From the IMG/VR virus record IMGVR_UViG_3300008450_000058, positions 1-49,658 of that record: a stretch of DNA of 49,658 nt; one strand, given 5' to 3'. The DNA is from a virus. Below are positions 1,800-38,700 of this stretch, piece after piece. The notes beneath the pieces are model-generated. The model was not told where the DNA came from. It searched no databases and saw only the letters and a list, made by a program, of their open reading frames with translations. The first letter of the stretch is position 1, and each line of letters opens with the position of its first letter. The translations under genes and the position numbers were made by a program.

Positions 1800-1801
1800 A
1801 T

Positions 1802-2812: not shown

Positions 2813-2818
2813 TACATT

Positions 2819-3349
2819 ATGAGTTTAACAACAAAACCTACAATCAACAGGCAAGAAAAGACTGAAGAACTGTATGTGTTTCATGATTGGAAATTCAAGT
2901 TACTAGGTGAAGACAACCCAGTATTTATCCCCAAGTGTGCTTATGTGCCTAAAGGCATGGGAGAGCAACACATTGGATTCTTTCTTAGTGAAGTTAAGAA
3001 AGGTAAGGATATCTATACTGAGTTCACAAGTATTGACCTAGATCCTGAAGATCCTACCAGAACTCTTTACAAGTGGAGATTTAATCCTCACTATGAAGAA
3101 GAGTATGAGAAGACTGAACCCGCAGCCAATGGTCACTTCAGATATCTTGTCCCTGTTTCAGAACTGATTAAAATTGATGTTCAACAACCAGTTGAAGAGC
3201 CAGTTGGTCAATTCCCAGACTTTGATGAGATTATGGACCCGGACATGGATGCACCATTGGATCAAGTCACAATTAGAGACCTTGCAGCAATCATGCTAAA
3301 GAAACCTGTGAGCAACAAGAAGTGGTTAAATGACATCATTAATTCTTAA
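2819..3349 (+). CDS. Hypothetical protein with acidic linker
   Basis: This is an unrecognised 176-residue protein. The N-terminal two thirds look like a beta-rich fold (YVFHDWKFKLLG, FIPKCAYVPKG, TLYKWRFNPHY). A Pro/Glu/Asp-rich linker follows (about 120-148, with FDEIMDPDMDAPLDQ), and a short helical tail ends in VSNKKWLNDIINS. The tail resembles a peptide docking element, which is a guess. It sits six bases after the helicase stop and three before the Sak4-like gene, so it is almost certainly co-transcribed with replication genes. No catalytic motif is visible. Confidence 0.8.
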   Translation: MSLTTKPTINRQEKTEELYVFHDWKFKLLGEDNPVFIPKCAYVPKGMGEQHIGFFLSEVKKGKDIYTEFTSIDLDPEDPTRTLYKWRFNPHYEEEYEKTEPAANGHFRYLVPVSELIKIDVQQPVEEPVGQFPDFDEIMDPDMDAPLDQVTIRDLAAIMLKKPVSNKKWLNDIINS

Positions 3350-3352
3350 GTT

Positions 3353-4078
3353 ATGGGAATAATATTGCCAACTGCAAAAGTTAAAGGGGAGAGAGTAAAC
3401 CCCAAGAGAATAGTTATCTATTCTAAACCAAAGACCGGTAAAACCACAGCGTATGCTGGTCTTGAGAATAATCTCATTCTTGATTTGGAAAACGGAACTG
3501 ATTATGTTGAAGCTATGAAAGTCAAGATCAGTAATTTACAAGAGCTCTTAGATGCCGGTAAGGCTATCAAGGAGGCAGGAAAACCGTATGATTATGTTAC
3601 CATAGATACTGTAACTGCATTAGAGGAAATGATTATGCCATTGGCTATCAAACTCTATAAGCAGACGCCTATGGGTAAGAACTTTGACGGAGATACTGTA
3701 ATCAATTTGCCAAATGGTGCAGGATATTTATATATTCGCCAGGCATTTTTCCAAGTCTTGGACTTTATTGATGGCTTAGCACCAACAATTATCTTGTCAG
3801 GTCACATCAAAGACAAACAAGTGGATGATAAAGGTGAGTTAGTTATGTCTGCCAATATTGATTTGACAGGTAAGATTAAGTCCCTGATTTGTGCACAGGC
3901 GGATGCTATTGGTTACATGTATAGAAAAGGTAATAAGACCATTCTATCATTCAAGACCAATGATGAAGTGACTTGCGGTGCAAGACCAGAACATCTCAGA
4001 AATGAAGAGATAGTAATTACAGAAATGATTGACAATGTCTTGCATACAACGTGGGACAAAGTATTTTTACACAAATAA
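3353..4078 (+). CDS. Sak4/RecA-like phage ATPase (AAA_24 type)
   Basis: This 241-residue P-loop protein belongs to the phage nucleotide-binding family (AAA_24) that includes Sak4-type recombinases. Walker A is SKPKTGKTT at residues 24-32 and the Walker B aspartate is D85 in YVTIDT. Later come SGHIKDK and a short C-terminal core with no extra domains, giving the minimal RecA-core length expected of Sak4. In this family the protein promotes single-strand annealing together with a phage SSB. The next gene encodes an SSB-like protein, which strengthens the reading. A role in recombination-dependent replication is inferred from that pairing and from the exonuclease at 11172. Confidence 0.8.
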   Translation: MGIILPTAKVKGERVNPKRIVIYSKPKTGKTTAYAGLENNLILDLENGTDYVEAMKVKISNLQELLDAGKAIKEAGKPYDYVTIDTVTALEEMIMPLAIKLYKQTPMGKNFDGDTVINLPNGAGYLYIRQAFFQVLDFIDGLAPTIILSGHIKDKQVDDKGELVMSANIDLTGKIKSLICAQADAIGYMYRKGNKTILSFKTNDEVTCGARPEHLRNEEIVITEMIDNVLHTTWDKVFLHK

Positions 4079-4089
4079 AACAAAGAAAG

Positions 4090-4770
4090 ATGGCATTAAG
4101 CACAACAGACTTAGGCAAAGAAGGTGGTAATGGACTACCTAAAACATTTGCACCGGGAAACCACACACTAAAGATTAACAGCGTGTATTTGGAAGAATTC
4201 AAATTTATTGATGGTGCAGTGCACTTCATGATGAACATGGAGACTGAGCCTATTGATGGGTTTGAAGGATTTATGATTGACAAAGATGATGAGAGCAAGG
4301 GTCACTATGCAGGTCAGATTGGTAGAGTTAAGGCTAGTCAATACGCATTTGCTGATGGTGAGACTAAGTCAGGTATCAAGATTCAGAGAGATAGATCTAT
4401 CATGATCTTCTTGCAGAACTTGTGCAAGACTATGGGAATCAATGATTGGTTCTTGGCTCAAGATAACAAGCATGACACAATTGAGGAGTTGGTGAATGCA
4501 TTTGCTAAAGATGCTCCTTTCAAAGATAAATATCTTGAATTCTGTATTGCTGGTAAAGAGTATGAAGGTAAAACTGGTTACACTAATTACGATATGTGGT
4601 TACCAAAAGGTTCTAAAGATGGATATGCTTATGCAGCTAAGGGTGCTAAAGTAATGCCTTACAATGAGGCAGACCACCTTAAGAAACTAGAAGTAAAACC
4701 TGTAAAGGATTTCGGTGATGATGATTTGGATATTCCAACAAGATCATCTTCTGACTTCAGTCTTGACTAA
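4090..4770 (+). CDS. Single-stranded DNA-binding protein candidate
   Basis: I place the start at the ATG at 4090 (MALSTTDLGK), since the earlier in-frame ATG at 4051 lies inside the Sak4-like gene. The 226-residue product begins with a beta-rich region (TLKINSVYLEEFKF, VHFMMNMETEP) compatible with an OB fold. It ends in a disordered acidic tail, FGDDDLDIPTRSSSDFSLD, the kind of tail through which SSBs recruit partners. I cannot prove the OB fold by eye. Position directly after a Sak4-like ATPase matches known phage sak4-ssb pairs. The gene ends just before a strong terminator hairpin, so it closes the first transcription segment. Confidence 0.65.
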   Translation: MALSTTDLGKEGGNGLPKTFAPGNHTLKINSVYLEEFKFIDGAVHFMMNMETEPIDGFEGFMIDKDDESKGHYAGQIGRVKASQYAFADGETKSGIKIQRDRSIMIFLQNLCKTMGINDWFLAQDNKHDTIEELVNAFAKDAPFKDKYLEFCIAGKEYEGKTGYTNYDMWLPKGSKDGYAYAAKGAKVMPYNEADHLKKLEVKPVKDFGDDDLDIPTRSSSDFSLD

Positions 4771-22591: not shown

Positions 22592-22603
22592 TAAATATAC
22601 TAA
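22592..22603 (-). promoter_or_regulatory. Candidate late promoter box (TTAGTATATTTA)
   Basis: On the minus strand TTAGTATATTTA spans the TAG stop of the upstream giant gene and ends 18 bases before the ATG at 22573. The identical 12-mer lies at 45577-45588, 20 bases before another late gene. It contains TATATTTA, close to the Bacteroidota -7 element. Confidence 0.45.
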
Positions 22604-25600
22604 TTATTACACTTTTTACTAGATCTTTTAGACGGAGGTAGTCCTTCAGGCGCGTTTTCATCAAATAATGTAAGCTGTGTTCCCGGTGCTACAGGCGCTT
22701 GTTGCACTTCTTCAAGAGATCTCTTACCATTATTATTTTCTGCAGCGGCTACTCTAAAGGTAAAGTTCATTCTCCAGTTATCTAACATCAAACCTCCGTT
22801 AAAGTATTTGTTGACATTAGAATTGTTAAGATTAATCTGGCCTAAATTAGTTGTTCCTTGTACATTAGTTACAGTATGTTGAACTAGTCTTGATTCACCA
22901 CCAAATACCATCACATCACCGCTTGACAATGTTTGTGTTCCTGATGTTTTTGTACCAGGTTTAGGCGCATATACAATTCCTTTAGCATTATTATAAGTAA
23001 AGTCTGCATTAGCACCAATGGATACGGAGATAATATCTCTATCTAAAGTTCTATAGTCTTCAGTAGTATCTTGATGCCAACCTAGTGTTCTACCAATAGG
23101 GTACAAGTTAATAAGTACTGTATCATAATCTGACATATCCTGACCTGTAATCTTTTCCAATATGCTAATGATATTATAGGGAATAGGCATGATAGGCGTA
23201 CCATCAAAGTTACTTAAGTAATAATTGTAGTTCCATCTCTTATCTTTACTATCTTGACCACCAAGACTTTTCTTGATTGATATAATAGACTCATTATAAG
23301 GACCATTTCTATCTACACCTTTACCTTCTTTATCCACTACAAATAAAGGACTCCATTCCATTTGTCCAGCAGAAGCCATCACATAAGCAGGGAAAGGATT
23401 ATAACCATTTTTCTCAAGTACATCTTTACCAAACTCAAAGAACTGTTTTTGTTCCTCTACAGTTAAAGCTTTTGGCATATAATCAAGACCTGGTTCTAAT
23501 TCTATAACATCTACTGTAGGTTTAACATTAGAAACATACTCAGTCATACCCTCAGACTTAATGTCTTCCAACATTTGCGCGTAAGAAGCAGCATGTCTAT
23601 CAATAGTTTCATCTGAAACATTAGCTCTATTCTTACCTGCAGCAATATCAGCTTTAATCCTTTGTTTTGCTAATTCAGGATCCAAAGCCATAAGCTTATA
23701 CTGAATATTAGCATTAGGTATTTCTTTTCTGATAGCTTCAATAAATGTTCTTCTCTTATCTTTTGTAAGATTAGTAGTATCAAATACAACTTGTTTACCT
23801 TGTTTTATTGCACTAATGGCACGTTTAGCAGCTTCAGTATAAATTTCTTTGTCTTTAGACTTATTATCTATATCTCCTGTAAACTCAATTCTCATTTCAT
23901 CAGGGGAGATGACAACCAAGTTCTCTTGAGGAAGAGAGCTAATAAATGTAGACTTTCCGCTACCACTTGTTCCAATAGGCAATATTACATCTGCTTCACT
24001 TGAAGCTGGTCTGTTTACAACAGGTTCTTTAACAAGTTCAAATTCTATAGCATATGGATAATTACCTACATTTTTATCTGTAACATCTTTTGTCCAACCT
24101 TCTTTTTGCCATGTTGCATCTTGATACTCTTGAGTAAATGGAGCTACTTTAGTAATTCTAGTGTAAGCCAAATTTCCTTTTTTGTCAGTCATGCGGATAA
24201 CCATACCAACCAAGTCTTCTATCTTAGTAAGACCATAGTCTTTAATCATTCTAGAGATATCTGTTTTAGCACGTGTAGTTCTTGTTCTATCACCAGAGAG
24301 TATTAAGTCCATAGTAGATTTACCTTTGAACTGCGGCTCCATAGTTCTACCTCCTGTACCATCTGCAAAGTTTTGCTCAATAGAAGGAAGAGCATCAGCT
24401 GCTTTCTTCAAACTTTCAATATCTCCACTAGCAACAGCACCTTCTTTAGTAAACTTATAGTACTCATATTTACCAACTACTACTGTAGATGCTGTGTAAC
24501 CCTTAGACTCCAAGTACTTCTGAATGTAGTAATCCTGTAGATTTCTCTGGTCATTGTAGCTTCCTAGTAGGAAAGTAGATACACCGCTATCTATAGCTCT
24601 GAGTATTTCAGGTTTGTATTTGTTCTTGAAGTCTTCTTGAATAGCTGTAGTAAGATCTACACCACCTCTATTAAAGTTACCAGAACCAGACAGTGCCACA
24701 ACTTCATCAGGCGTATACTTACCTTTGTTAGCCAAGTTACCAAATGCTTGTCTGTAAACTTTAGTAGAAGACTTAGCATCTAGTCTAGGGTCATTAAGAG
24801 TTGTTTCAAAACCAATGAATGCATCAGCATCTTTGAACATCTCAATGTCTTTAGCTCTAAATGGATTAGTAGTTTCTACAGCATTAATTGCTTCTATAAC
24901 TTCTGCAACAAGAGGATTCTTAGCCTTTCTATTCATCTGCTCTAGCTCATTGAGCATATCTTCCTCATCATACTCCTCAAAAGCAGTATCAGTAACCATT
25001 CTCTTGAAGCCAGATGTAACAACATAGTTCTTAAAGATGTCACTGTTGTCCAATAGGTTGATTGTTATACCCTCCAATTGATTTTCATCAATAGGATTTT
25101 GCAAGTAGTTAATACCTACAGTTCTCATTAGAGTGATATAACCGGCTGAGTCATATACTTTAACAAAACCAAATGAGCTATATCCAATACCATGTTGGTA
25201 GTACATCATTTCTGAGAAGAACTTAAAGGTATCAGAGATGTATTTATTCTCTGCATCACTTCCCTTACGGATAGTAATATCACCTAACTGTACAAGATCA
25301 TTATGGTAACCATCAGCAACATCACCAGTTGCCTTTGAGTCATTCAATACAATGATGTTCTTGTCTGTTTTAGTTCTTGACTCAGGAGCTAGTTGTGAGG
25401 CTATTCCAAATTTTTGTTTTAATACAGGGAACTGATTAAGCAAACGCATCACATCATCAGTGTAATTGAATTGTGACAAGCCCATGACATATCCTGGGTT
25501 GAATGAGTTTCTAAGAGCTCTTTTAACCAAATACATTTCATAGGCTGCCGGCTCATCCAAATTAAACTGAGACATAAGATCCTGGAACATGTATTCCTCT

Positions 25601-28600
25601 CTTACTTTCTCAATAGGATTATTGGTTCTGAGTAGCTCTCTTTGTACAGTAAATAGTACATAGTTACTGAAGTATCTGAAAGATGTACCAGCAAGAAGAC
25701 CACCTTTGTCTTTTGGAATTACTCTCACAAATGGATCTCTTTCAGCATCAAATGCAAACAGTCCTCTTCCAAGATATGACTCTGGCTTGTTTACATTATC
25801 TAGATACATACCATCAGCAAAGTCAGACTTAGTAAGTTCTATGTTTATAGATATTACACCATTCTCAATCTTAACAGCTTCAGCTTGCTTATCATTAATA
25901 GATATCTTATACCCTTTGTAACCTTCAGGTAGCATCAAGTCTTCATCTATTATTTTTGCATTAGGGAAGTTAGATAGTGTGTTTTGGAACAATGATGTTA
26001 CTACAGCATTGTTAAACATAGAACTGAATCTTTCTTTACCTTCAATACCCTGACCAAATCTAGCAGCAATAGTATTGCTAAATCTGTTTGTTGCATCTTC
26101 AATATACTCAGAGATATCACGGTCCAATCTTAATGGGAATAGTGGTTCAATTGTATCCATCATCAACTGATCAATACGGAAGCTACCTAGAATAGACTTT
26201 TTCTCAAAGTCATCCATCAAGCTATCATCAATCTTACCAGACTTCTTAAGATCTGCAATACGCTGTTGTCTGTTTCTTACTTGCTGAATAGTCTTCACAA
26301 AACTAGTATCAGGTGACATCAATGCGGCAGCTTCTTGCATACCTTTAAGTTGATGCTCAATCTGAATATAGTGTAATAAAAACGCTAATGCTAAACGGCT
26401 AGTTGTATCATTCTTAGTAATAGAATCTGTAATCAAATTAGTATTAAATACAGCTTCTTGAGAACCAAATACTTTATCAAAAGCAATTCTTTTTGCATAG
26501 TAGTAATTAGCAGTAGATACTATTGATGAAGAAGGTTTATACAATTGTTTTTGTAAAGGGAATGCTAATTTTTCATCATATAGATTAATACCTCTCACAA
26601 CAAATGGTGGTACATCACCTGACTGAAGACCTTTCTTCAATTGAGAAGCTGGCATTTGTACGTATCCTACCTTTTGTCCAAAGTATACACTTATTTGTGT
26701 AGTCGGATTAAGTTCATTAAGAGTAACCATCAATCTGTCAATTGTAGCTTGCAGACGTATATCATTTACAAGTCTGTATTCTTTTGCACCACTAGCCTCA
26801 TATTCAGCTACAGTTTTTTCAGCAGCTTGAAACTTATTCATTGAAGAATTATCCGGTGCCACCATTCTAATCTTCCCATAGACATCCGCAAACTCTCTCT
26901 GTAATTTTACATATTTTTTAATCAATGGTAAGTTCACAAAGTATAATGCTTGTTCCTCATCTACACCAGCTTCAATTAAGTGATTGATGATTGGCATAGT
27001 CTCAGGTACCATGTTTAGTTCACCCGGGAATGACTTCTTAGCACGGTCTAAGATACCGTTCAAGTTGTGAGAGTTAATAGATGTAATTCTAGTACCCTTT
27101 CTTGTTTGCAATCCAGCCAATGAGATTACCTCTTTACCTGCTTTATTTGTAGTAGTGTTATGATTAAAGTGTAAGTCTACTAGATATCTTCTCTTTGTAG
27201 GAACATACTTACCATCTTTCCACACTGTCTCATAGTATGAGTCTGGCATCTTAGCACCAATCTCATTGTCTATTACATGCTGTTTATTTTGCTTAGCTGT
27301 AATACCCAAAGTAAGCTGACCGCTAGATAAGTTTACCTCAAACTTATGCATGTTGTATCCAATCTCTAGAGTTCTAGTAGAACTCATTACAGCCTTATCT
27401 TTATTCTTTGGATCAAACTTATAGCCTTTGATTGTTCTGTTATCTAGTTTTTTGTAAGGCTGTGCAGCAGCAACTAGTTCAGCATACTGTTCAACAAGGT
27501 ATGTACTGTTAGGCTTTGTTAAGTTAGCAAAAGTGTCTGGCAAACGCAAGATATCTAAACGGAGTTGTATAGACTGATTATGTAATGCTTTTTTCTGAGC
27601 ATTAATAATTGCAGAAGGTGTAATAATTACCTCTTCTTCTTCACCTTTTGCTTTCTTCTTACCTTTTTTTCTATCTTCAGCTCTCTGTGCAATCTTCTCA
27701 GTTGCTTCTGTAAGTTTAGCTTTGAATTCAGCATTGCTCAATGGCTTGCTTAATGAGAAACCATCTCCATCAATATATGCATATTCAAAGTTCAACTTAT
27801 CAACGTCAAAGTCACCACCGGTCTTGGCTACAATCTCAGTAGGTACTACAACTATATTACCCATTTGAGGTTCAAAGAAGTGCCATACCTCAGCACCTTC
27901 CACAAGGTTGATACCATCTGTAGGGATACGTGGTCCTGTAACACTAATTGCAAACCTGTTGTCATCTTTGTCTAACCATTCATCATTCTGGATTAACTTG
28001 TTTAACAAAGCTAATGGATCAGGGCTTTCTGCTATCTTTTTACCATTAAGGTCTAGACGCTGATATAGGTTCTCAAAGTCAGCTTGCATAGTAATAGCAA
28101 CCTTCATCATAGATGATGGACCATACTTGCCAGTCTTAGGATCTTTCTTACCTCTTCTATAGAAAGGTAAGTTGTTTGAACCTAATAGTTTTTCAATCTC
28201 TTTCTCATCAGTGATGAGTTCAAAGTCTGTATCCCATAGACCATTGTACAAAGTTGACGGTACCTGAATAAGAGGTTCTCCTTTTGCTTTCTGTCTAATG
28301 ATTCTCTTTTGAATCAGTGCAGTAGCTAAAGCTTCAATGTCATCTGCAATAGGATGTAATGAGTAATCCATTGTTGCTTGACCACCTACATTCACACCAA
28401 CTAAATCAATAAGGTGTTTAGGTACAGCCTTTTTACCAAGTCCTTTCTTAATAGTATTTACAAACTTCTCAACACTGTTACCGGATGCTTGGTACATTCC
28501 GTCTTTATAAACAAAGCCAATTTCATTTAGAAGCTCTGCTATAAGAACATTGGTAATGTTTCTGCTATTCTGGACATATCCTTCAACAAGTTCTTTGTTT

Positions 28601-31600
28601 TCCTCTGGGTTAACAATCTGACCATCCTTAAAGAAGTTGTCAACAAACATTACTCTTTGTTGGGTACCTGCGGTTACCTTTTTCTTAAATGTGCTATTAA
28701 CTGATGTTACATCCTTAAGATACTCAACATAGATTATGTTGTTTGCTGTTTGGAAATCATCACCTGTCTTGATAGCTTTTTGTTTGTCATTCAAGAAGAC
28801 ATCATCAAAGTTACCATCTAGAGTTACTGTAGACACCTTAGAACCAGAACCAAACAATACATACTGTCTGTTACTTCTGAGCATCTCCTCATGAAGCTTT
28901 TGCAATTGAGCACCACCAAGTGCACCCGGCACAAGTGGTGTAAGTGCAAACTTATGCATACCTACAACAGATATTACAGTCTCATGTAGTGGACCATAGT
29001 ATTGCAACTTGTATGGCGGGAAGAACTCTTTAACTTCTTTTGGAGTTAGCTTTTCACCAGCAACCAGTTTTTTATAAAGCTGTTCTTGCTCATATGTCCA
29101 TTGCTTAGATGCTTTCTTAAGAGTTCTGTAAGCATCAATTGTAATGTAACCGGCACCATCTGACTCAGTCATTTTCATGTATGGATCTACGTCATACTCA
29201 ATAAGCTTATCAATGAAAGCTTTTCTTTCTGCTTCATTTGGAATAGCTTCTTTGTAATCCTCTTCATACATCTCACGCCAAGACTCAGACATCTCCTTGA
29301 TATACACTGATTCTCTTTCAGCATCTGCAATAACTCCAGTATTTAATCTACCGTTGTACACAAAGTTATCATAGTCCTTATCAGTATCCTGAGCATTGTC
29401 TCTTACATTAAGTGCTTGTGCATATGTTGTTGGACCTACAATGTCACCAGTCTTTGCATTCTTTTGTGCAGCATTAAATACATTATTAATGAAGTTGTTA
29501 AAGAATGGACTGTTCATGAAACCAAGACCACCTGATGTATTACCAGCATTTCTTTTTTGAAGCTCTTCTTTCAAGTGATTAAACTGAGAGATATCTCCAA
29601 AGAATAGATGGATAATCTCAAAGTTGTGTATCCAAGAATTGTACGTAAAGGATGTCATCAGTGTTTTTCTGATTGCACCTTTTCTTTCTAACTCAGCAGC
29701 TGCTTTATCAATAGTATCAGCAGGAACTTCAGGGATACCCGTCTTTTCAACAAGTACTTTGTCATATGAGAAGTCTTCAAACAAACTCATATTTAAAGCA
29801 ACTTCTGCTCTAAAGTACTTTATTATATCATTTTGAATTGTATTCCATAAGTTAGCATTCTCTGGGCTGTGTAAGTATTCTACTATATCACCATCCCAGT
29901 CTTCTGCTAATTCATACAATGCTTCTTTAGTATCTTTACCAAGAACATCATCAAACGCTACAAATACTTCAGCAGCCATTAGTGGCTTACCATCTTTATC
30001 ATAGTCTACTGTTTGATTTGGTCCTTTAATCTTAGCTACCTCATCACGGTTCTCCTTAACCATGACAATTCTGTCAAACTCTGTAGCTAAGTTTTGAATA
30101 AGAACTCTATTAACAGCATATAGTTCACCTGCTGTAGCTCCTGGTCCTGCTTGCGGAGCAAACATATTAGTATCCACATACAAGTGATCATCTAAACCTC
30201 TCTCACTCTTCTCACCTATGATACCACCTAGTAATCTGATAATAGGGGTTGTCTGCTTATCCGCATTCTGGAACATGTTATTAGCACCAGACTTGAGCAT
30301 TAGAGTAAGTTCCTGATTGAATTTACCCATAGGAGTAAGAGTACCTGTTGTGTTACCTAGGTTCTTACCAGGTATACGGGTTCCATCATCCATTGCAAGC
30401 TCAATAGTTCTCTCACCTCTACGGTCATACATAAAGGTCTCAATGTTAAACATACTGTTTAGCAATATAGACCTTTGAGTATACGCATTTCTAGTAGGAT
30501 CAAGATAGCTCATGTAAGAATACTCTGGTTTTGTCCAGGCTTCGTCAAGACTCTCCATTGTGTTGAGCCCGTTAACTTGCATATACAAACTGTTGATATC
30601 TATGTTCTCATACACAGTATCTCCGTTTGCATTCTTAATACCAAAGTTCATTGTCTCATAACCCAACTTAGCATTAAGCTCAGCAAGTTTTACAATGATA
30701 TTTTTTTGCTCAACAACACCTTTCTTAGCTTTAACACTAGGTACTAAAGTAGCACGGATCTTTCCTTTCAATATACCAATAGGATCTTTCTTGAAATCAT
30801 TAACTAAGTTGATTGCTTCAGTGCTTAGATTATTATTTGGCTCTTTAAGTTTGTCCTGTAGGTTCTTGATGTCTTTTGCAATATTGAATAAGTAAGGTAT
30901 ACCATATTCATTCATATTGTCATTGATAGTTTTCTCAAGAGCGTCAGTGTTATCTAAGTAAATACCGATAGCTCTAGCAAACTCAATTGCTTTATCTGTA
31001 TTTAAGTTACCATCTTTTGTACTGAACTTGCTTATTGCTGCATCTAAGTTTAGAATTGAAGTATTGTTTACCTTAGAAATAAACTCAGTTTCCGGTGATG
31101 AAGCAAATTCATTTTGGAATCTCTTGATGATTGTGTTTCCATCTACAGAAGCATAACGCATTTCAGAATCATAACCTACTGTTACAAATTCTATATTACC
31201 TGTAAGATAATCCGTCTGAGTTTCAACAATAGGGAAATACATCAACTGAATGTACGGAACCTTTGGTCTTCTGAATGTTTGCCAGAACCCAACAATGTTA
31301 TCTACCTCAAATGAATTTGTGATAGCCATACCTCTCTCAGGATCATATTTAGGATTAGGCAGCTTCTTCTCTACAAGTTGTCTGAGTATAGGATACGTAT
31401 TCTTAAGTTTATTAAGAGTACTATACATTAACTCCGCATCTTGCATACCAGCAATAGACTTAGCAACTATGTTCCATGTGTCTTTGAAGTTGCTTAGTTT
31501 CTTGTGACCAAAGCGGTCTAGCTCATTGTTACCATTGGCATCAACATAGAATAAGCTACTCAAGATATACAAAGTACTGTTATCAGCTAGCTGCTGTAAT

Positions 31601-34600
31601 GAGTACTTACCTACTTTACTGTCATTAGTAAGCTCTTTGTTCTTAGCTTCTAATTCAGCTTCTTCATTTGTAGGGATACCATCTTCATTCTCTTCATCCT
31701 CATAGTCATCACTCTCATAGTCGTTGTCTGGATCATACTCCATGTCCACATAAGACTTTCTAAGTAAAGTAAATCTACTCTTCTCTAAGTGATATTTAAT
31801 TACACCTGCTGGTATTCTACCATCTTTCCAATACTCAGGGTCCCCAAAGTTGTCAAGTGTTGCCTGAAGGATTCTTACGTTGTCAAGAACAAGTTCCTGC
31901 TCTTGTGTAAGTACTGAATCCTCCACACCCTCTTTCATTACAGGTTCAGTGAATGCCTTAGCACCACCTTTAACGTAATTCTCATACTGTACTTGAGCAT
32001 CAGATAGCTGTGATACTACCATGATGTCTACTGTCTTCTTACCAGATTTAAGAGTCTTGTGTACATAGAAGTCAGCAACAATAGGAATATCAAAGTACTT
32101 TTCTCCTTTTACGCGTGCACCCTTCTTGATATCTGCAGATAGCTCACTGAAGTCATCAATCTGAGATCTAAGGAAGATATACTTATCTTCTCCCTTAGCG
32201 TTCTTCATTACACCTACAGCATTCTCTTTGATGTCTTCTAGTGATGTAAACTCACTAAATTTTTTGACATTTGGTTGTAAGAACAACTTAGCTTTCTCTC
32301 TTTCAAGATCTTCAGTAAGTCTCTTCTTGATATTCTTATAGAGAACAGTTCTGTTTTTATCACTTGTAAGCAAGTTGATTACACCAGCCTTAAGACTCTT
32401 TGTGACTCCCTGGTCTTTTCTGTCATCATGCAATCTATCAATCTCTTCTGAGATAATAGAGTCCATGGTTGCTACCATCAAATCAGAATCAGTAGTACTT
32501 AATGCATCTTCTCTAGAATTATTAACCTTAGTAATACCTCTATTAAGTACATTAAATCTAATGTTCTTGATCAGTGGTTGATAGTTATTCAGGAAGTTAT
32601 TCTTATTGTAGTATAGGTTCTCAAACAACTCATTTATTGCAGGTATACTAGAGCTATCTACAACAACATCTTGTTTAGAGATAGGCAATAGCCCTTTTAT
32701 CTTAGAGAACATAGCCTGAAGGAACTTCAGCATTCTTCTGAAGATAGTATTTTTAACCGGGATATTGTCTTTTAGAGTCTTGTCTTTAGCATAGGTTCTA
32801 AAGTCTTCCGCCAACATTTCCTCAATCTGAAAGTAGGTCATGTTTTTGTATGGCTGATTACCATTAGCATCAGTATACTCTTTAACCTTTTTGTAAAGTA
32901 CAATCTTCTCTGCTTTAGTAAGGAATAACTGTGTAAAGACGTGGAAAGCCTCATGGTATACGTCTACCATGGAACCTTTAAGAGGGTTGATTTTGATCTG
33001 ACCCAACTTGCTGTTATCAATAAGTGTTGCTCCGGCTACTGTAAACTCTGCAAATGCATTTGAGTTAACAAGGTTAGCCAAGTGTGAAAGCTCAATGACT
33101 TCTTGAAACTTCTTACCTGTCTCAGAGGTATTCCACCATTTGTTAGCTTTTCTTCTCTGTGCTCTAGTAGTTTTACCTGAAAGACCCTCACCTCTTTCTA
33201 ATTCATCAAAGTCATAACCAGAATCTGTTTCTGTTTCCTTTGCAGCATTAGTATTAGTGTTAGTAGGATTTGGTGCTTCTGGTACAGTTGCTTGTTCAAT
33301 TATACTAGCCATTGAAGAAGCAGGCGGTGTAAATGGTTGTGAAGGCAAGCCTTCAATTCCTTTATTGATAAAAGCTCTTTGTTTCTCAGTACCAATTCTA
33401 GATGCAATGAATACATCAGTAATAGCATTAGCCAACTCTTTGGTATATGCATTCTGTGCATTCTTTTCAAACTGCTGTCTAAGGAGATTAGCTACATAGA
33501 AACCAGTGTTAGCAGAGTTACTTACTATACCTTGATCTTCTAGATAGTCAATCCATTCACTAGTCTGACCATAAGTTTCTAGTTGCTTATAGATACTGTG
33601 TGCTAACTTATTTAAATCAGTTTCTTCAACACCAGATTCAAAAGGATTAAGCGGTACAAAAACACTTGGTATTTCTTCCTCAGTTTCTTGTCTCTCTAGA
33701 TTAGCATCACTTGGAATAGTGAAAGACATGTATGCATTATAGAAACCTGGATCTTTGGTCTTAACACTTACTGTAGATTCCAAGTTCATCAAGAAGTCAA
33801 TGTAGTCTTTCTTTTGAAACTTACCTGTAGCAGCATCATATACCTCATACTGACCGGAATCTAATAGATGTTCTGCATAGTTCAGTTTAGTAGGCATAAA
33901 CCTTTCAAACTTAGGCTGATAATAACCTCTCTCTAAAGCATCTATAATACCGGCTTTTACATTAGCAAGAACTTCTGGAGTTGCCTTTGCCAAAGCATCA
34001 TCAGAAAGATATAGAGTTGTATTCTGACCTCTTCCTTTAGAGTCATTAAACTCAAACAATCTATAAGTACCTTGTTTGTATTCTTTACCATTAATTACAG
34101 TACCTGGTGCAATATAGTAGAATTTATATCTCTGGTTGTTCAAAGGAGTTCTCTTTGCTTCAAACTCTTTGATAGTCTTTTCACTTACAGGATCAGTAGT
34201 TTCTTTTACAAATTCCCAAGACTCCTGTGTAGTATACTGATACACTGATAAGTTTAGAATCTTCTTATCAACATCATAGATTAATGTATGTCTTCTTGCT
34301 GTTGGATTAATGTCATTACTCAAGAACTGCTGTGCAAAGTCCAATCTCTTTCTAAAAGGGATGTTCTTATTTGTAAGAACTTCAGCAATTTGATTTACTA
34401 TATCTGAAGAAAGATCACTTCTATCTAGTTCAAACTTAGTTCCGTTAAACTCAATAACAGCCATACCTTTAGATAGACCACCCTCCGGTGTCTTCAAAGT
34501 CTCAATTGTTTTAAAGACTTTTCTATCAACACCAAGAGATCTTAATTGATTTAAGGGAATGTAGACATTGTTTATATCTGATGTCAAACCTTCACTAACT

Positions 34601-35727
34601 CCATCAAAGATGAGCTCTTGATCCTTACCAGAAATAACAGACTTCTTCAAGTCATATAGTCTCTGAAACTCTTCCTGCTGTGCCTTGCGTATTTTTTCAA
34701 TATACTCTTTAAGCGGACCGTCTGTTTCTTTGTTGTATGTCTTCTCAGCAATAAGTTCAGGAGTTGCTATCTTCTCTTCTTTACCATAGATATCAGTTAC
34801 TACAAGTCTATCTCCTGACTTTCTAACATCATACATGAACTGATACACCGGTTTCCCTTCTTTCTCAGAAACAATGTTCCCATCTTCATTAAAGAATAAA
34901 ACATTCCCTTTACCGTCAGTTACTACAATAACAACTCTGTCAGCTGTTTGAGCTACATCAGCACTTGCTACACCTTTGTTAACCATTCCCTCAGATCTTG
35001 TGATCTCTTGCATTGTAGTTGCATCAATCTGATTAGGGAATTCTTTAGCAAATTTATCTAAACGGATAGCCTTAAGCTTAAGAAACTCATTCTGATATTT
35101 GATTGCAGCTAGCCCATCATCATCAATATCAAACGTACTAGCTAGTCTCTTCAATGTAGTCTGCATGACTACTCTATTTGAGTCAACCTTTTCTGGTACA
35201 AGAATTCTTTTTGTAGTTGGGTTTCTTTTAAGGTACTCCTGAATGGTTCCCTTCAAAGCACTGAAAGACTTGTATCTTTTTTCTGTTGGCTCTTCTACAG
35301 GCTCTTCTTTTTCCTCAAGATTATCCTTAGTCTTCTTATTTGGATTGCTACGCTTTCTTGTTTTCTTTTCAGCTGTACTATCTGCCTTACTTTTTCTCTT
35401 AGGCTTAAAGCGTTGGATGATTGTGTTTATACCATCTTCTGCATAGAATGCTGTAGAAGCTCCCCATAGTTCACCAAAAGCTTGTGGAGATATGTTAACC
35501 TTACCTTGGTAAGCCGTATTTAACAAGTCAATAATAATCCGCGGAACATGTTGTACAAACTCAGCAGCTTTTTCAGGACTATGGCTCTTAGCAATCTTAT
35601 TATAGATTTGCTTCATGATGTCCTCTGCATCTAGAGGCTTATCATTTTTTACACGGTCTTCAACAAATGCTGTTACAGCTGTGTAAAGCATTGAAATTTC
35701 ATTGTCTAAAAGAATACAAGTTATCAT
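22600..35727 (-). CDS. Virion RNA polymerase fused to protease-like and repair-type domains
   Basis: I start this gene at the ATG at 35727 (TAATG overlap with the upstream stop; a TTG at 35739 is also possible), giving 4,375 residues. In order: a Lys/Arg-rich linker (about 110-160); HEAFH at 925-929 with EEMLAEDF near 969-976, a gluzincin pattern; a first barrel-type segment LTPLVPGALGGAQLQKLHEE and GSGSKVST with candidate catalytic K2297; the RNA polymerase motif D2639-F-D-V-D2643 in TGGDFDVDKLNFEYAYIDGD, matching the DFDID loop of crAss-like phage phi14:2 gp66. The C-terminal 700 residues add a Rossmann-like segment (about 3671-3740), an ASCH-like domain (3796-3899), a P-loop kinase (GTSGSGKST 3919-3927) and an AlkB-like dioxygenase (H4218, D4220, H4284, RMNFTFR 4319-4325), then QLTLF at 4351-4355. 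It ends in TAG. It probably transcribes early genes after ejection. Confidence 0.9.
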   Translation of the reverse strand: MITCILLDNEISMLYTAVTAFVEDRVKNDKPLDAEDIMKQIYNKIAKSHSPEKAAEFVQHVPRIIIDLLNTAYQGKVNISPQAFGELWGASTAFYAEDGINTIIQRFKPKRKSKADSTAEKKTRKRSNPNKKTKDNLEEKEEPVEEPTEKRYKSFSALKGTIQEYLKRNPTTKRILVPEKVDSNRVVMQTTLKRLASTFDIDDDGLAAIKYQNEFLKLKAIRLDKFAKEFPNQIDATTMQEITRSEGMVNKGVASADVAQTADRVVIVVTDGKGNVLFFNEDGNIVSEKEGKPVYQFMYDVRKSGDRLVVTDIYGKEEKIATPELIAEKTYNKETDGPLKEYIEKIRKAQQEEFQRLYDLKKSVISGKDQELIFDGVSEGLTSDINNVYIPLNQLRSLGVDRKVFKTIETLKTPEGGLSKGMAVIEFNGTKFELDRSDLSSDIVNQIAEVLTNKNIPFRKRLDFAQQFLSNDINPTARRHTLIYDVDKKILNLSVYQYTTQESWEFVKETTDPVSEKTIKEFEAKRTPLNNQRYKFYYIAPGTVINGKEYKQGTYRLFEFNDSKGRGQNTTLYLSDDALAKATPEVLANVKAGIIDALERGYYQPKFERFMPTKLNYAEHLLDSGQYEVYDAATGKFQKKDYIDFLMNLESTVSVKTKDPGFYNAYMSFTIPSDANLERQETEEEIPSVFVPLNPFESGVEETDLNKLAHSIYKQLETYGQTSEWIDYLEDQGIVSNSANTGFYVANLLRQQFEKNAQNAYTKELANAITDVFIASRIGTEKQRAFINKGIEGLPSQPFTPPASSMASIIEQATVPEAPNPTNTNTNAAKETETDSGYDFDELERGEGLSGKTTRAQRRKANKWWNTSETGKKFQEVIELSHLANLVNSNAFAEFTVAGATLIDNSKLGQIKINPLKGSMVDVYHEAFHVFTQLFLTKAEKIVLYKKVKEYTDANGNQPYKNMTYFQIEEMLAEDFRTYAKDKTLKDNIPVKNTIFRRMLKFLQAMFSKIKGLLPISKQDVVVDSSSIPAINELFENLYYNKNNFLNNYQPLIKNIRFNVLNRGITKVNNSREDALSTTDSDLMVATMDSIISEEIDRLHDDRKDQGVTKSLKAGVINLLTSDKNRTVLYKNIKKRLTEDLEREKAKLFLQPNVKKFSEFTSLEDIKENAVGVMKNAKGEDKYIFLRSQIDDFSELSADIKKGARVKGEKYFDIPIVADFYVHKTLKSGKKTVDIMVVSQLSDAQVQYENYVKGGAKAFTEPVMKEGVEDSVLTQEQELVLDNVRILQATLDNFGDPEYWKDGRIPAGVIKYHLEKSRFTLLRKSYVDMEYDPDNDYESDDYEDEENEDGIPTNEEAELEAKNKELTNDSKVGKYSLQQLADNSTLYILSSLFYVDANGNNELDRFGHKKLSNFKDTWNIVAKSIAGMQDAELMYSTLNKLKNTYPILRQLVEKKLPNPKYDPERGMAITNSFEVDNIVGFWQTFRRPKVPYIQLMYFPIVETQTDYLTGNIEFVTVGYDSEMRYASVDGNTIIKRFQNEFASSPETEFISKVNNTSILNLDAAISKFSTKDGNLNTDKAIEFARAIGIYLDNTDALEKTINDNMNEYGIPYLFNIAKDIKNLQDKLKEPNNNLSTEAINLVNDFKKDPIGILKGKIRATLVPSVKAKKGVVEQKNIIVKLAELNAKLGYETMNFGIKNANGDTVYENIDINSLYMQVNGLNTMESLDEAWTKPEYSYMSYLDPTRNAYTQRSILLNSMFNIETFMYDRRGERTIELAMDDGTRIPGKNLGNTTGTLTPMGKFNQELTLMLKSGANNMFQNADKQTTPIIRLLGGIIGEKSERGLDDHLYVDTNMFAPQAGPGATAGELYAVNRVLIQNLATEFDRIVMVKENRDEVAKIKGPNQTVDYDKDGKPLMAAEVFVAFDDVLGKDTKEALYELAEDWDGDIVEYLHSPENANLWNTIQNDIIKYFRAEVALNMSLFEDFSYDKVLVEKTGIPEVPADTIDKAAAELERKGAIRKTLMTSFTYNSWIHNFEIIHLFFGDISQFNHLKEELQKRNAGNTSGGLGFMNSPFFNNFINNVFNAAQKNAKTGDIVGPTTYAQALNVRDNAQDTDKDYDNFVYNGRLNTGVIADAERESVYIKEMSESWREMYEEDYKEAIPNEAERKAFIDKLIEYDVDPYMKMTESDGAGYITIDAYRTLKKASKQWTYEQEQLYKKLVAGEKLTPKEVKEFFPPYKLQYYGPLHETVISVVGMHKFALTPLVPGALGGAQLQKLHEEMLRSNRQYVLFGSGSKVSTVTLDGNFDDVFLNDKQKAIKTGDDFQTANNIIYVEYLKDVTSVNSTFKKKVTAGTQQRVMFVDNFFKDGQIVNPEENKELVEGYVQNSRNITNVLIAELLNEIGFVYKDGMYQASGNSVEKFVNTIKKGLGKKAVPKHLIDLVGVNVGGQATMDYSLHPIADDIEALATALIQKRIIRQKAKGEPLIQVPSTLYNGLWDTDFELITDEKEIEKLLGSNNLPFYRRGKKDPKTGKYGPSSMMKVAITMQADFENLYQRLDLNGKKIAESPDPLALLNKLIQNDEWLDKDDNRFAISVTGPRIPTDGINLVEGAEVWHFFEPQMGNIVVVPTEIVAKTGGDFDVDKLNFEYAYIDGDGFSLSKPLSNAEFKAKLTEATEKIAQRAEDRKKGKKKAKGEEEEVIITPSAIINAQKKALHNQSIQLRLDILRLPDTFANLTKPNSTYLVEQYAELVAAAQPYKKLDNRTIKGYKFDPKNKDKAVMSSTRTLEIGYNMHKFEVNLSSGQLTLGITAKQNKQHVIDNEIGAKMPDSYYETVWKDGKYVPTKRRYLVDLHFNHNTTTNKAGKEVISLAGLQTRKGTRITSINSHNLNGILDRAKKSFPGELNMVPETMPIINHLIEAGVDEEQALYFVNLPLIKKYVKLQREFADVYGKIRMVAPDNSSMNKFQAAEKTVAEYEASGAKEYRLVNDIRLQATIDRLMVTLNELNPTTQISVYFGQKVGYVQMPASQLKKGLQSGDVPPFVVRGINLYDEKLAFPLQKQLYKPSSSIVSTANYYYAKRIAFDKVFGSQEAVFNTNLITDSITKNDTTSRLALAFLLHYIQIEHQLKGMQEAAALMSPDTSFVKTIQQVRNRQQRIADLKKSGKIDDSLMDDFEKKSILGSFRIDQLMMDTIEPLFPLRLDRDISEYIEDATNRFSNTIAARFGQGIEGKERFSSMFNNAVVTSLFQNTLSNFPNAKIIDEDLMLPEGYKGYKISINDKQAEAVKIENGVISINIELTKSDFADGMYLDNVNKPESYLGRGLFAFDAERDPFVRVIPKDKGGLLAGTSFRYFSNYVLFTVQRELLRTNNPIEKVREEYMFQDLMSQFNLDEPAAYEMYLVKRALRNSFNPGYVMGLSQFNYTDDVMRLLNQFPVLKQKFGIASQLAPESRTKTDKNIIVLNDSKATGDVADGYHNDLVQLGDITIRKGSDAENKYISDTFKFFSEMMYYQHGIGYSSFGFVKVYDSAGYITLMRTVGINYLQNPIDENQLEGITINLLDNSDIFKNYVVTSGFKRMVTDTAFEEYDEEDMLNELEQMNRKAKNPLVAEVIEAINAVETTNPFRAKDIEMFKDADAFIGFETTLNDPRLDAKSSTKVYRQAFGNLANKGKYTPDEVVALSGSGNFNRGGVDLTTAIQEDFKNKYKPEILRAIDSGVSTFLLGSYNDQRNLQDYYIQKYLESKGYTASTVVVGKYEYYKFTKEGAVASGDIESLKKAADALPSIEQNFADGTGGRTMEPQFKGKSTMDLILSGDRTRTTRAKTDISRMIKDYGLTKIEDLVGMVIRMTDKKGNLAYTRITKVAPFTQEYQDATWQKEGWTKDVTDKNVGNYPYAIEFELVKEPVVNRPASSEADVILPIGTSGSGKSTFISSLPQENLVVISPDEMRIEFTGDIDNKSKDKEIYTEAAKRAISAIKQGKQVVFDTTNLTKDKRRTFIEAIRKEIPNANIQYKLMALDPELAKQRIKADIAAGKNRANVSDETIDRHAASYAQMLEDIKSEGMTEYVSNVKPTVDVIELEPGLDYMPKALTVEEQKQFFEFGKDVLEKNGYNPFPAYVMASAGQMEWSPLFVVDKEGKGVDRNGPYNESIISIKKSLGGQDSKDKRWNYNYYLSNFDGTPIMPIPYNIISILEKITGQDMSDYDTVLINLYPIGRTLGWHQDTTEDYRTLDRDIISVSIGANADFTYNNAKGIVYAPKPGTKTSGTQTLSSGDVMVFGGESRLVQHTVTNVQGTTNLGQINLNNSNVNKYFNGGLMLDNWRMNFTFRVAAAENNNGKRSLEEVQQAPVAPGTQLTLFDENAPEGLPPSKRSSKKCNN

Positions 35728-38700
35728 TATCCCGGGCAATTTATAATTTTATTCAAGTCATTAAGGGCATCTTTTGGATTCATAGATTGACCTTTCTGAA
35801 CTGCTTCAGTTTTAGCATCATTATCATCTAAAAACGTTGCCACATTATCATTTGTCTGAGTAATGACAATTGATTCTTCTTTGGTTGGTTTATACGGTGT
35901 ATCCATAGGTCCTCCTGGTTCGTCTTCATATTTGGCTGCATCAACAAAGATATCACTTATCTTGTTAGCTGGTACCTCTACCAGGTTGCCATCTTGTGTT
36001 CTTACTTTAATTGAGTCTTTAAGTATTTCAGCAACCACAACTTTCTCATTAGCCCCAATAATGCTTATAATAGTAGTCTTGCCTTTTTGCGTTGTTGTCG
36101 TGAACTCATCCATGGCAATTAGCTTACTATTTAATTTAACATTATTTATTGAAACTGACTCAATTTCTCCAATACTTAATTCAGTTTCTGCTTCTTCAAG
36201 TAAATTAACAAGATCTTTGTATTGCTCATCAGTGATACCACTACTTACTTTAGCTGCAAACAGTTCAGTATTTAATTCATCAAGTTCATCAAGATTAGCC
36301 ATCATGATACGCTCTTTAAGATCATTGTAAGTATCTACTTGATCTTGTCTTGCTCCTTTATTAACTGTAGGGTTAGGAGCATTAGTTCCACCTGTTGGTC
36401 CTGCTTCATCCTCAGTTGAATCTTCATCTGGTCTTATTGGACCTGAAGCTCCAGACTTACCATCTTTTCTAGGAATGATTTTACCAATTAGTTCCTCAGC
36501 AGTAGTATTTACTACTTCTCCATTCTCATCTAGTTGTTGCAGTTCCTGATTCTTGTAAAGCTTAACTGAGAAAGGCTTGTTACTTTCAAGAAGACTCATG
36601 TCATCATCTTCAAACAGTTTTTTAGTAGTTGGTCTACCCGCTTTCATGATTTTACCATCAGCAGAATCTGGATCATATTTAGCTTCAATTGGTAAGATTC
36701 CAATGTTAGTCTCTAAACCATATTGATTAAATACTAAGTTAGAGTAAGACATCTGCTGAAGGGTATTCTCAATTCTCTTATTGTAACCAATAGTTCCTTT
36801 GTTATTGTAAAATTGCCACTTACTATAGGTTCCTGTCTTAAGGTCAATGATGTGAATTTTACCATCACGGTCTGCTATAAGTAAGTCAATCTCTCCGGCA
36901 ATTCTACGTGTCTTACCATTTGCATCAACAACCTCTCCATAGACTACTATATCTGTAGCAATGAAGAACTCACCCTTATCTGCCCGTTCTTTAAGCTGTG
37001 TTAAGTAACCTGTCTTAGGATCAAAGAGTTCATCATAAGCTTCTTTAGTAATCCGCTCTTCATCAAATTCAGGAGCCTCACCATCAAATATACGTTTAGA
37101 CTGTTTATCCGTATAGTTACCTACTTTTTTTGAAGCCTCATATGATTGCTCTGCTGCAGTATTAAGAGCAAGCTTTCTTATCTCTTCTATGTCTACAGAT
37201 CCTGGTGTTGTAGTTGTTTGGGTAGTAGCTTCTAAAGCATCTAGTTGAGCATCGTATTTAGCATTGATTTTATCTGTTCTATCTATTGTTACACCTGTCA
37301 AAAACGCACCTATGTCAGCCATCCCCCTAGGTTGTCCATTTCTTTTTACAGTTTTACCATTTCTAAAATAGTAGGTATCTCCGTTTGGCTCAATTAATTT
37401 GTCTCCTTCTTGAAGTTGTTTTTCAAAATTTTCTTGTATCTCTCGATTTTTATCAGCTTCTACAGAAGAAAGAGCTTCTCCACTTTTACCTTTTCCACCT
37501 CCCAGTTCACTAAATCTAAAATACCTTGGTATTTCTATCTTAGCCGTAGCTAATTCTTCTTGCCTTCTTCTTTCTATTTCAACTTTCTTGGCTTCTATAT
37601 CAGAATCAGCGGAAGGAGTTAATTTATCTATTACTTTTACAACCTCAACTAATTTTGTTTTTTCTCCTACAGGTATACGTATTGCTGCCATCTCAGCTTC
37701 TAATCTAAGAGCATAGTATACAACAAGAGAACCAACAAGTGTATTTGGATTATTATTAGCTCTATTTTTTACTTCAGTAATTATCTTTTCTATTGGTATA
37801 TCTAAAACCTGTTGTATTTCCTCTTCCTTTAATCCAACTGCAATTTTTCTCAATCTTGCTTCTACATCAGCTCTTTTAGGATCTGCCTCTGGAGTAGGAG
37901 CAGTTGTTGGTGCACCACCCATGATAGTCATTGAATCATAGAATCCAAGAAGATCTCCTTCTATCTCATCAAATGTATAAGTACTGAATCCTCCTAGTTT
38001 ACCGTTATCACTTTCTTTAGTAGCTCTTAAGTCATCAACAAATGCTTTTATAGATTCTTCATTAAATCCTTTTATACCTATAGTAACGTCAAAGGCAGTA
38101 TTAAGAATAGCTAAGTCATTCTCATTCAATCCAAAAACATCATATACGCTCTTGATTGCATATGATACTCTCTCATGCTCTGTCCCTTTAATCATGTACA
38201 CATTTGGTACCTCTTGTGGATTGGCAGTATAGATAGCTGTATCAATACTTCTCTGGAAAGAACTTGCATTAGGTGTACTTGTATCAAATACTCTGTCTTC
38301 TCCGGCAATATTATACAGGTTGTCTCCTTTATACTCAACGCGGATACCTTGTTTAGTATATCTGATATCACCTTTTTTCCAAGCTCTATCATCTTCAGGT
38401 ATTGTGATTGATTTTAGATCTTGTTTCACAATATCCTTTTGATTCAACTGCATCACCTTGATCTTAGCAATTGCTGCTTTGAGTTCATCAGTGGCACCAG
38501 ACTGTAGTCTTTTATCAATCAGTAAGTTCATACCATTAATCATAGACTGTAAATCAAGAATTGCTTCAGTGTCTGCAGAATCTTGAATTTTCTTTTTCTT
38601 AATGGTTGCAATCTTAGCGTTAAACTGTTTAATAAAGTTTCTTAATTGAGGTACAGAAGTTATAGTAGATGTGTCATATGAAGTACCATCAAGAGTAAAG

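Follow-up and report, generated by a model that had tools for sequence, protein, structure and literature searches.

The closest described counterpart of the protein analysed here is the virion RNA polymerase of phage phi14:2 (PDB 6VR4; KC821624 gp077, which we take to be the gp66 of the literature). The protein in question is a single chain of 4,375 residues, encoded on the minus strand of IMG/VR virus record IMGVR_UViG_3300008450_000058, of which positions 1 to 49,658 were analysed as one stretch of 49,658 nucleotides, here called the window. The two proteins have a polymerase core with the same catalytic DxDxD motif and lysine, but the phi14:2 protein is 2,180 residues long, about half the size, as an earlier sequence-only reading of the window had stated, and it has neither an HExxH nor a P-loop motif. 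Its neighbours gp076 and gp078, like gp077 itself, are annotated as structural by tandem mass spectrometry (KC821624). The polymerase is reported to transcribe the early genes (PMC7886860, PMC10136315).

Among human gut viruses, crassviruses are reported to be the most abundant, and the virions of phicrAss001 contain gp47, gp49 and gp50, detected by mass spectrometry (PMC10172136). In phicrAss001 an HExxH motif lies near the end of gp47 and the polymerase motif lies in gp50; both are present as in the window chain, but in separate proteins, and unlike the window chain gp47, gp49 and gp50 have no P-loop motif. Giant crassvirus polymerases of up to about 6000 residues are already known from a review, and crassvirus polymerase genes have been described as multidomain.

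The polyvalent proteins of Iyer et al. 2017 (PMC5512222), which include N4-like virion RNA polymerases with a zincin, combine polymerase, HExxH domain and unrelated effectors in one injected chain and vary like cassettes; the window chain has a like combination of predicted domains, and its relatives vary in a like manner. That account concerns N4-like RNA polymerases, and its main text does not contain the terms 'crAss', 'AlkB', 'dioxygenase' or 'double-psi'. The N4 virion RNA polymerase has an HExxH domain, and its structure has been published under the title 'giant RNA polymerase ejected from coliphage N4' (PMC12633501). A further parallel is found in the replicase polyproteins of flexiviruses, in which AlkB stands beside polymerase, helicase and, in some of them, protease domains in one chain, with a patchy distribution of AlkB, as among the relatives of the window chain (PMC544882). 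Flexiviruses are plant RNA viruses with an unrelated polymerase, and the parallel is a functional one only.

The explanation favoured here, which we regard as probable though by no means assured, is that the window chain, of crassvirus virion RNA polymerase type, is a polyvalent injected protein, in which the polymerase serves as a chassis for exchangeable early-acting enzymes. In order from the N-terminus, the chain would comprise an N-terminal region, a zincin-like domain, the DNA-dependent RNA polymerase, and an exchangeable tail of enzymes. As in polyvalent proteins generally, several unrelated predicted catalytic domains are found with a polymerase in one chain, and they vary between relatives.

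The RNA polymerase

The frame 22600-35739 on the minus strand is open throughout, and the ATG at 35727, which shares bases with the stop codon of the preceding gene (TAATG), gives the single chain of 4,375 residues that the sequence-only reading had described. Residue numbers given here (P0001) count from a TTG start four residues before this ATG, and are larger by 4 than those of the earlier reading: HEAFH, the polymerase lysine, DFDVD, Walker A and HxD are at 929, 2301, 2643, 3923 and 4222, formerly 925, 2297, 2639-2643, 3919 and 4218.

A profile of 42 related polymerase cores matches 6VR4 with an E-value of 1.4e-52, over residues 990-1523 of the phi14:2 protein, while the other seven PDB matches listed have E-values of 0.25-0.9. 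Pairwise comparison with the phi14:2 polymerase gives E-values of 1e-11 and 1e-6, with the catalytic aspartates and Lys2301 aligned. The lysine (K102), a RIP-type motif (R405-P407) and the DxDxD aspartates (D444, D446 and D448) are invariant in the alignment of these 42 sequences (A2). When residues 208-3113 were compared by tblastn with a collection of 50,697 named phage records, 11 records matched, and the six that were checked are all assigned to Crassvirales. Judged by homology, the giant gene encodes a crassvirus virion-type RNA polymerase, and the earlier assignment, made from the DFDVD motif, is upheld. The motif would not have sufficed: in 2,000 composition shuffles of the chain HExxH occurs by chance in 1.8%, D[FY]DxD in 12.5% and GxxxxGK[ST] in 14%, and because the last two are so frequent, D[FY]DxD and P-loop motifs alone are weak evidence and homology decides.

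The alignment to 6VR4 suggests that the chain has two double-psi barrels. By analogy with the homologues in phi14:2 and phicrAss001, it is probably carried in the virion and enters the host together with the DNA.

Side observations were made on the cores of two relatives (loci of relatives are numbered with the prefix L). At L005:13659-22562 (phage cr108_1) the polymerase frame ends right after VAKAGSD, within the catalytic DxDxD, which is what an intron or another break at that point would produce. In the open reading frame 11517-20471 of L129 the polymerase-core match is split in two by an ASCH match.

The tail as a probable exchange slot

The polymerase-core scan of the viral collection gave 408 confirmed loci, of which 80, among those listed, were kept. 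Between the window chain and its closest relatives, homology extends to about residue 3,600. A boundary of this kind is also seen between relatives. Over residues 1-3473 the identity between L011 and L015 is 83.8%; the two then diverge abruptly, L011 continuing with an ASCH module and L015 with about 400 other residues instead; the last 59 residues of L015 before the end of its contig match the opening of the L011 AlkB domain (77% over 62 columns). Similarly, L013 and L014 share 71% identity across 2,004 residues, beyond which they have nothing detectable in common. Two close relatives, L014 and L016, match none of the four module profiles.

Scanning 40 of the longer tails against Pfam identified a family at or over cut-off in 14 (counted by eye). 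These are AlkB (L011, L013, L036), NADAR (L013, L035, L085), RNase H (L017), AAA_30-type helicase of SF1 type (L044, L071, L083, L088), cpYpsA together with ASCH (L054), and DUF7831 (L050, L067, L089). Below cut-off there are ART-PolyVal (L013, L022, L044), AlkB (L034) and DUF7831 (L025, L029, L035). Different putative enzymes follow the same polymerase, with a sharp boundary between the two, and on these sequences the polymerase tail is probably a slot for exchangeable modules.

Some smaller observations concern the same tails. Residues 3523-3636 (approximately) of L015, at the place of the ASCH of L011, have a weak match to DarG, an ADP-ribosyl glycohydrolase, and A1S_2505_Nterm is matched below cut-off by both L015 and L014. 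DUF7831 is matched in six of the polymerase tails and reaches or exceeds its cut-off in three.

The tail modules of the window chain

The tail of the window chain is divided into four modules. The first is an alpha/beta module, which has only generic Rossmann-type structural matches (Z of 6.3 or less) and no Pfam match in the window chain. Its family is uncertain, and SLOG-like would be a guess.

The second module was modelled using AlphaFold. The best match of the model in VIA is to E. coli N4-acetylcytidine amidohydrolase YqfB (9kyf), with Z 9.4 over 93 residues, a root-mean-square deviation (rmsd) of 2.6 and 22% identity. The first 11 VIA rows, with Z of 9.4-6.6, consist of two YqfB, five proteins titled ASCH and four small proteins which we take to be ASCH members; three chains have Z of at least 8. 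Foldseek alone gave no match for the model at E 0.001, and the ASCH reading therefore rests on the VIA comparison. The module has no Pfam match in the window protein and no relevant PDB match by sequence profile; in a relative, L054, it reaches the Pfam ASCH cut-off (22.0 against 21.2). On the predicted structure, tail module 2 is assigned to the ASCH fold.

The third module matches Pfam AAA_33 with E 3.8e-16, over cut-off, and the polynucleotide kinase family PHROG 505 with E 2.6e-11. Among the PDB matches of its profile are 4jst (E 1.8e-6), presumably the kinase domain of a bacterial Pnkp, Pnkp1 (4xrp, E 4e-4) and polynucleotide kinase (1ly1, E 0.002); this is a profile of two sequences, and a C-type lectin, seryl-tRNA kinases and an ABC protein match at similar E-values. 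When the last 1,266 residues of the chain were compared with the named phage records at E <= 1e-5, the only match was the polynucleotide kinase of a Bacillus phage (two records of one phage). By its sequence family, tail module 3 is a P-loop kinase of the Pnkp/T4 Pnk type.

The fourth module matches Pfam 2OG-FeII_Oxy_2 with E 2.5e-21, over cut-off, and its profile matches AlkB, ALKBH2 and ALKBH3 in the PDB. Both iron-binding histidines, the aspartate and Arg4284 are kept in 65 of the 65 domains aligned, a set that includes the window and its sister record (described below). Arg4329 is kept in all 63 that have no gap there, and Arg4323 in 42 of 63. The tail domains look like working enzymes. 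The sequence-only reading, which placed ASCH-like, kinase and AlkB-like domains in the C-terminal 700 residues, is thus borne out by structure prediction for the first and by sequence families for the other two.

Distribution and movement of the modules

The relatives of the modules occur mostly, but not always, in polymerase chains (the counts for ASCH, AlkB and kinase each include the sister record of the window once). The ASCH module is in frame with a polymerase-profile match in 22 of 30 loci, and two more frames hold a variant of the DxDxD. AlkB lies inside the polymerase chain, identified by profile or motif, in 58 of 64 loci, or 44 of 48 clusters at 95%; of the four other clusters two have a GSDLDxD variant, one is a fragment at a contig end, and one is a free-standing frame of 265 residues on a 368-kb contig. 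For the kinase the figure is 5 of 11, and at L062/L125 and L129 the kinase is in a large protein directly before the polymerase chain. No kinase relative in genome contigs was confirmed.

A comparison of domain order across relatives, as proposed with the sequence-only reading, finds the polymerase constant, the tail enzymes variable and their order shuffled. The ASCH module comes before the HExxH domain in L100 and L034, and after AlkB in L110 and L135, while in L067 the kinase stands between the HExxH motif and the polymerase. The window kinase is 66% identical to that of L067, with polymerase cores that are 28-32% identical; the window ASCH is 78% identical to those of L059 and L063, whose cores are 26% identical to that of the window in the best segment. 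Slow change of a short domain could account for part of this high identity. The changed position of the modules and their patchiness argue for module transfer as well.

The distribution was also compared with a tree of 87 polymerase-core clusters (95% clustering), derived from 109 of 111 matches after exclusion of two short cores. The tree is of a quick kind, with long-branch warnings, and excludes the AlkB-scan loci L134-L197. Chains cut at the 3' end and without a module were not scored as lacking it, but those cut at the 5' end were, so that N-terminal modules may be undercounted. Of the alignments made in the analysis, A8 was misaligned and left unused, and A10 is A9 minus two misaligned rows. 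The ASCH module requires 18 changes (present in 23 of 81 chains), compared with a mean of 20.3 in 200 shuffles, 23 of which were as low. The kinase requires 6 changes (6 of 79 chains; shuffled mean 5.9) and AlkB 7 (7 of 79; mean 6.8). With loci from the polymerase scan only, the values are 7 changes for ASCH (8 of 62; mean 7.6, 63 of 200 as low), 4 for AlkB (4 of 62; mean 3.9) and 1 for the kinase (1 of 62). ASCH, kinase and AlkB are thus scattered on this sequence tree about as at random, with no clear sign of inheritance with the polymerase.

Some single loci have unusual arrangements. At L117:2-20110 a single frame of at least 6,703 codons holds the HExxH domain, the polymerase, ASCH and a kinase far downstream. 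In the open reading frame 5618-13699 of L132 the ASCH match (1629-1717) falls inside that of the kinase (1461-1580 and 1717-1754), as though the one module had been inserted into the other. At L133:9791-10234 there is a frame of 148 codons with a partial kinase match, just before separate frames for the HExxH domain and the polymerase.

The HExxH domain

The HExxH motif lies 1,294-1,756 residues before DxDxD in 51 of the 56 chains that reach far enough (the others of the 80 start less than 1,850 residues before DxDxD; in L037 the polymerase motif, DYDYD, was set by hand). Without near-duplicates it is in place in 45 of 50 chains, and the other five have HExxE. By chance, HExxH would be found in 0.25% of random windows of 750 residues with the composition of the window chain. 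In an alignment of 28 chains (A3), H929, E930, H933 and E974, the last of these 45 residues on in the window, are invariant, as is an A..FR motif that follows; the A3 row of L067 extends into the inserted kinase (residues 815-928), a small impurity in model and profile. In L077, L074, L088, L089 and L084 the domain is retained according to the profile, and the motif reads HEAFE.

The AlphaFold model of the domain has a mean predicted local distance difference test score (pLDDT) of 60, with 59-73 in the blocks of the HExxH residues and 89 in that of the conserved glutamate. Foldseek found no match at E 0.001, and the best VIA match has Z 4.5; PPEP-2 (6fpc) is matched with Z 3.7 over 67 residues, rmsd 3.5. 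The profile found nothing relevant among PDB sequences. Of the 25 families shown in a Pfam search of the 28 members of A3, Tox-MPTase2 alone is peptidase-like, and it was matched by one member, with E 0.003. Of the gluzincin motif in the sequence-only reading, therefore, the HEAFH and its conservation as a family stand, while a zincin fold was not identified by the structure searches. On sequence conservation the domain is described here as zincin-like, and is a candidate protease.

In some relatives the domain is encoded separately. Three Intestiviridae, Rudgehvirus, cr271_1 and cr8_1, have a separate upstream gene with an HExxH in its later part, and in Rudgehvirus this gene is annotated ZnMc_tr; these cases are likened to the window domain by motif and position only. 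At L133 the domain is in a separate frame of 733 codons before a polymerase frame of 2,208 codons. In phi14:2 gp077 and gp078 lack HExxH and gp076 has HEIMH. The domain looks like a feature of the group, to judge from these sequences, fused in some relatives and split in others, and the idea that it is peculiar to the window phage was rejected on the count of 51 in 56 given above. Chain length was likewise rejected as a distinguishing mark: the 46 complete chains among 68 non-redundant clusters of the polymerase scan, read from stop to stop, have 2,198-5,005 residues with a median of 3,951, and seven have 4,375 or more. The claim that the chain stands out by its size or its protease-like domain is accordingly dropped.

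It is possible, though we think it doubtful, that the chain is an autoprocessed polyprotein, cut by the zincin-like domain in assembly or after ejection, so that the polymerase, ASCH, kinase and AlkB then act separately. In favour of this are the invariant residues and the HExxH in place in 45 of 50 chains; gene boundaries in phicrAss001 (gp47/gp50), Rudgehvirus, cr271_1, cr8_1 and L133 fall where a cut would, and processing by zincins has been proposed for polyvalent proteins (PMC5512222). However, besides the lack of a zincin identification in the structure searches, no cut site was identified, the HEAFE of five of the 50 chains implies a changed or possibly lost metal site, and the phi14:2 polymerase has no HExxH in its chain. 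The N4 polymerase, which has an HExxH domain, is reported as a giant protein when ejected; in that text 'cleav' occurs once, on a purification tag, and no statement for or against self-cleavage was noticed there (PMC12633501).

Genomic setting

The features of the window are collected in Table 1. The giant gene is one of three consecutive giant genes on the minus strand, for proteins of 2,283, 4,375 and 1,977 residues. The first of these matches PDDEXK_1 in Pfam near its C-terminus (residues 1829-1924, E 3.8e-5, 24.2 bits against a cut-off of 22), and the third matches LysM (residues 1669-1705, E 6.1e-7). In L002 the downstream gene, for 1,953 residues, has HEFAH. The first minus-strand protein at the edge of the window has no tblastn match in named phages.

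Table 1. Positions of the giant gene, its predicted domains and its neighbours in the window.
Feature	Position	Strand	Remarks
Giant gene, 4,375 residues	22600..35727	-	ATG at 35727
HExxH domain, residues ~830-1090	32470..33252	-	HEAFH 32941-32955; conserved Glu974 32818-32820
RNA polymerase region, residues ~1282-3600	24940..31896	-	lower bound estimated from position of phi14:2 DxDxD; upper bound is end of homology
Conserved polymerase core used for profiles	27460..29142	-	Lys2301 28837-28839; DFDVD 27799-27813; alignments A1/A2
Tail module 1, alpha/beta, residues ~3600-3785	24385..24942	-	common to L068, L035, L067; AlphaFold (AF2) block pLDDT 49-89
Tail module 2, ASCH-fold (predicted), residues ~3785-3905	24025..24387	-	AlphaFold (AF2) block pLDDT 89-97
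Tail module 3, polynucleotide-kinase-type P-loop kinase (predicted), residues ~3915-4070	23530..23997	-	Walker A 23950-23973
Tail module 4, AlkB-type Fe(II)/2-oxoglutarate dioxygenase (predicted), residues ~4085-4332	22744..23487	-	HxD 23068-23076; His4288 22876-22878
Upstream large protein, 2,283 residues	35727..42578	-	PD-(D/E)XK match; stop overlaps start of giant gene
Downstream large protein, 1,977 residues	16640..22573	-	second HExxH (HEYSH) and LysM domain

The facing block on the plus strand matches families of DnaB-like helicase, primase, HNH endonuclease, ATPase, exonuclease and DNA polymerase. A replication block that faces a block of transcription and structural genes is, we assume, the crassvirus layout. 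The phage probably belongs to the order Crassvirales, judging from polymerase homology and gene layout alone. A sister record (IMGVR 3300031758_000068, 63.6 kb) is 100% identical to the window in all five stretches compared, and may share the same reads.

Discussion

In the explanation favoured here, the chain would be packaged in the virion, ejected with the DNA, and would start transcription, as its homology implies. Since the tail enzymes are on the same chain as the ejected polymerase, they would already be at work in the first minutes, ahead of all phage gene expression; their substrates would be nucleic acids. The AlkB domain may remove alkyl or methyl groups from the phage DNA template or early RNA, the kinase may heal 5'-OH ends left by host nucleases, and the ASCH domain may read or hydrolyse a modified base. 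Recombination would swap the modules to match the defences of different hosts. Repair or counter-defence on entry, which the sequence-only reading had suggested, is plausible. Sister tails carry NADAR and ART-like domains, families that have been linked to conflicts over NAD+ and ADP-ribose (PMC9503650). The sequence by itself is compatible with repair of phage nucleic acid, counter-defence, the finishing of transcripts or an attack on the host.

The proposal that the tail finishes transcripts, acting on nascent phage RNA by 5'-end phosphorylation and removal of methyl or acetyl groups in normal transcription, with no part in repair or counter-defence, is in our view unlikely. It fits with modules of nucleic-acid enzyme families that are carried on the polymerase chain in most AlkB and ASCH loci, less well with the minority of kinase loci where this holds. 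It does not explain why L014 and L016, which are close relatives, match none of the module profiles, and a common role in RNA finishing does not suit the NADAR, ART-like and helicase modules that occupy this slot in other tails.

AlkB, polynucleotide kinase and YqfB-like folds belong to families of repair or editing enzymes, not of damaging ones. This makes it improbable, to much the same degree, that the tail is offensive and alters host RNA or DNA for host shutdown, rather than protecting the phage. An offensive role does find some support in the RNase H and (below cut-off) ART-like modules of sister tails, and in the statement that polyvalent proteins strike host macromolecules (PMC5512222). 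Finally, an assembly artefact or chance fusion is very improbable, and a chimera was rejected: although the record is metagenomic and its identical sister may derive from the same reads, the frame is open throughout, the active residues are kept in every AlkB domain aligned, and other viruses have independent in-frame fusions of AlkB, ASCH and kinase to polymerase chains.

A number of points weigh against the chassis model. The window phage is known from its sequence alone, with no virion, activity or host to set beside it. Its DNA polymerase gene matches 945 phage records, and among the 12 listed none is a crassvirus by name. The module scans were seeded with modules from polymerase chains, and it is partly expected that relatives were found there. 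In the tree, loci obtained with the polymerase stand alongside others obtained with the ASCH and kinase modules, and the few cases of kinase (six) and AlkB (seven) leave the test weak for these two. Not every module moves freely: the alpha/beta module follows the tree, with 7 changes (12 of 81 chains; shuffled mean 11.4, 0 of 200 as low) or, with loci from the polymerase scan only, 4 (8 of 63; mean 7.7, 0 of 200 as low). In 26 of the 40 longer tails no Pfam family is at or over cut-off. The AlkB module scores 41.7 bits against a cut-off of 267 for the NCBIfam bacterial AlkB equivalog, and the kinase 31.1 bits against 750 for full bacterial Pnkp, covering profile positions 10-160 of 851; orthology to either is unsupported, and the sequence likeness is one of family only. 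RNA ligase was not found in the 63.6-kb sister record, which is possibly incomplete, and a full RNA-repair pathway is thus unsupported.

The literature search, whose coverage of crassvirus papers is incomplete, found no description of such enzymes on polymerase tails. As far as the searches reach, AlkB, ASCH and kinase on crassvirus-type polymerase chains are new, and so are the sharp exchange boundary and the statistics given here.

A broader proposal is offered tentatively, and is on balance rather unlikely to hold in full. The chains may be the bacterial-virus counterpart of the replicase polyproteins of RNA viruses, with a backbone of protease and polymerase and an exchange slot for AlkB, ASCH, kinase, NADAR, ADP-ribosyltransferase-like and helicase modules. 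They would be cut up on ejection into a ready-made set of enzymes that would shield the incoming genome and the earliest transcripts, and recombination would alter this set as host defences change.

If the tail is an exchange slot, each tail points to a host defence or nucleic-acid insult that is met on entry. The modules are single domains of about 120-260 residues, which can be expressed individually. Nucleic-acid demethylation would also gain a new place in an AlkB subfamily that occurs mostly in viral polymerase chains.

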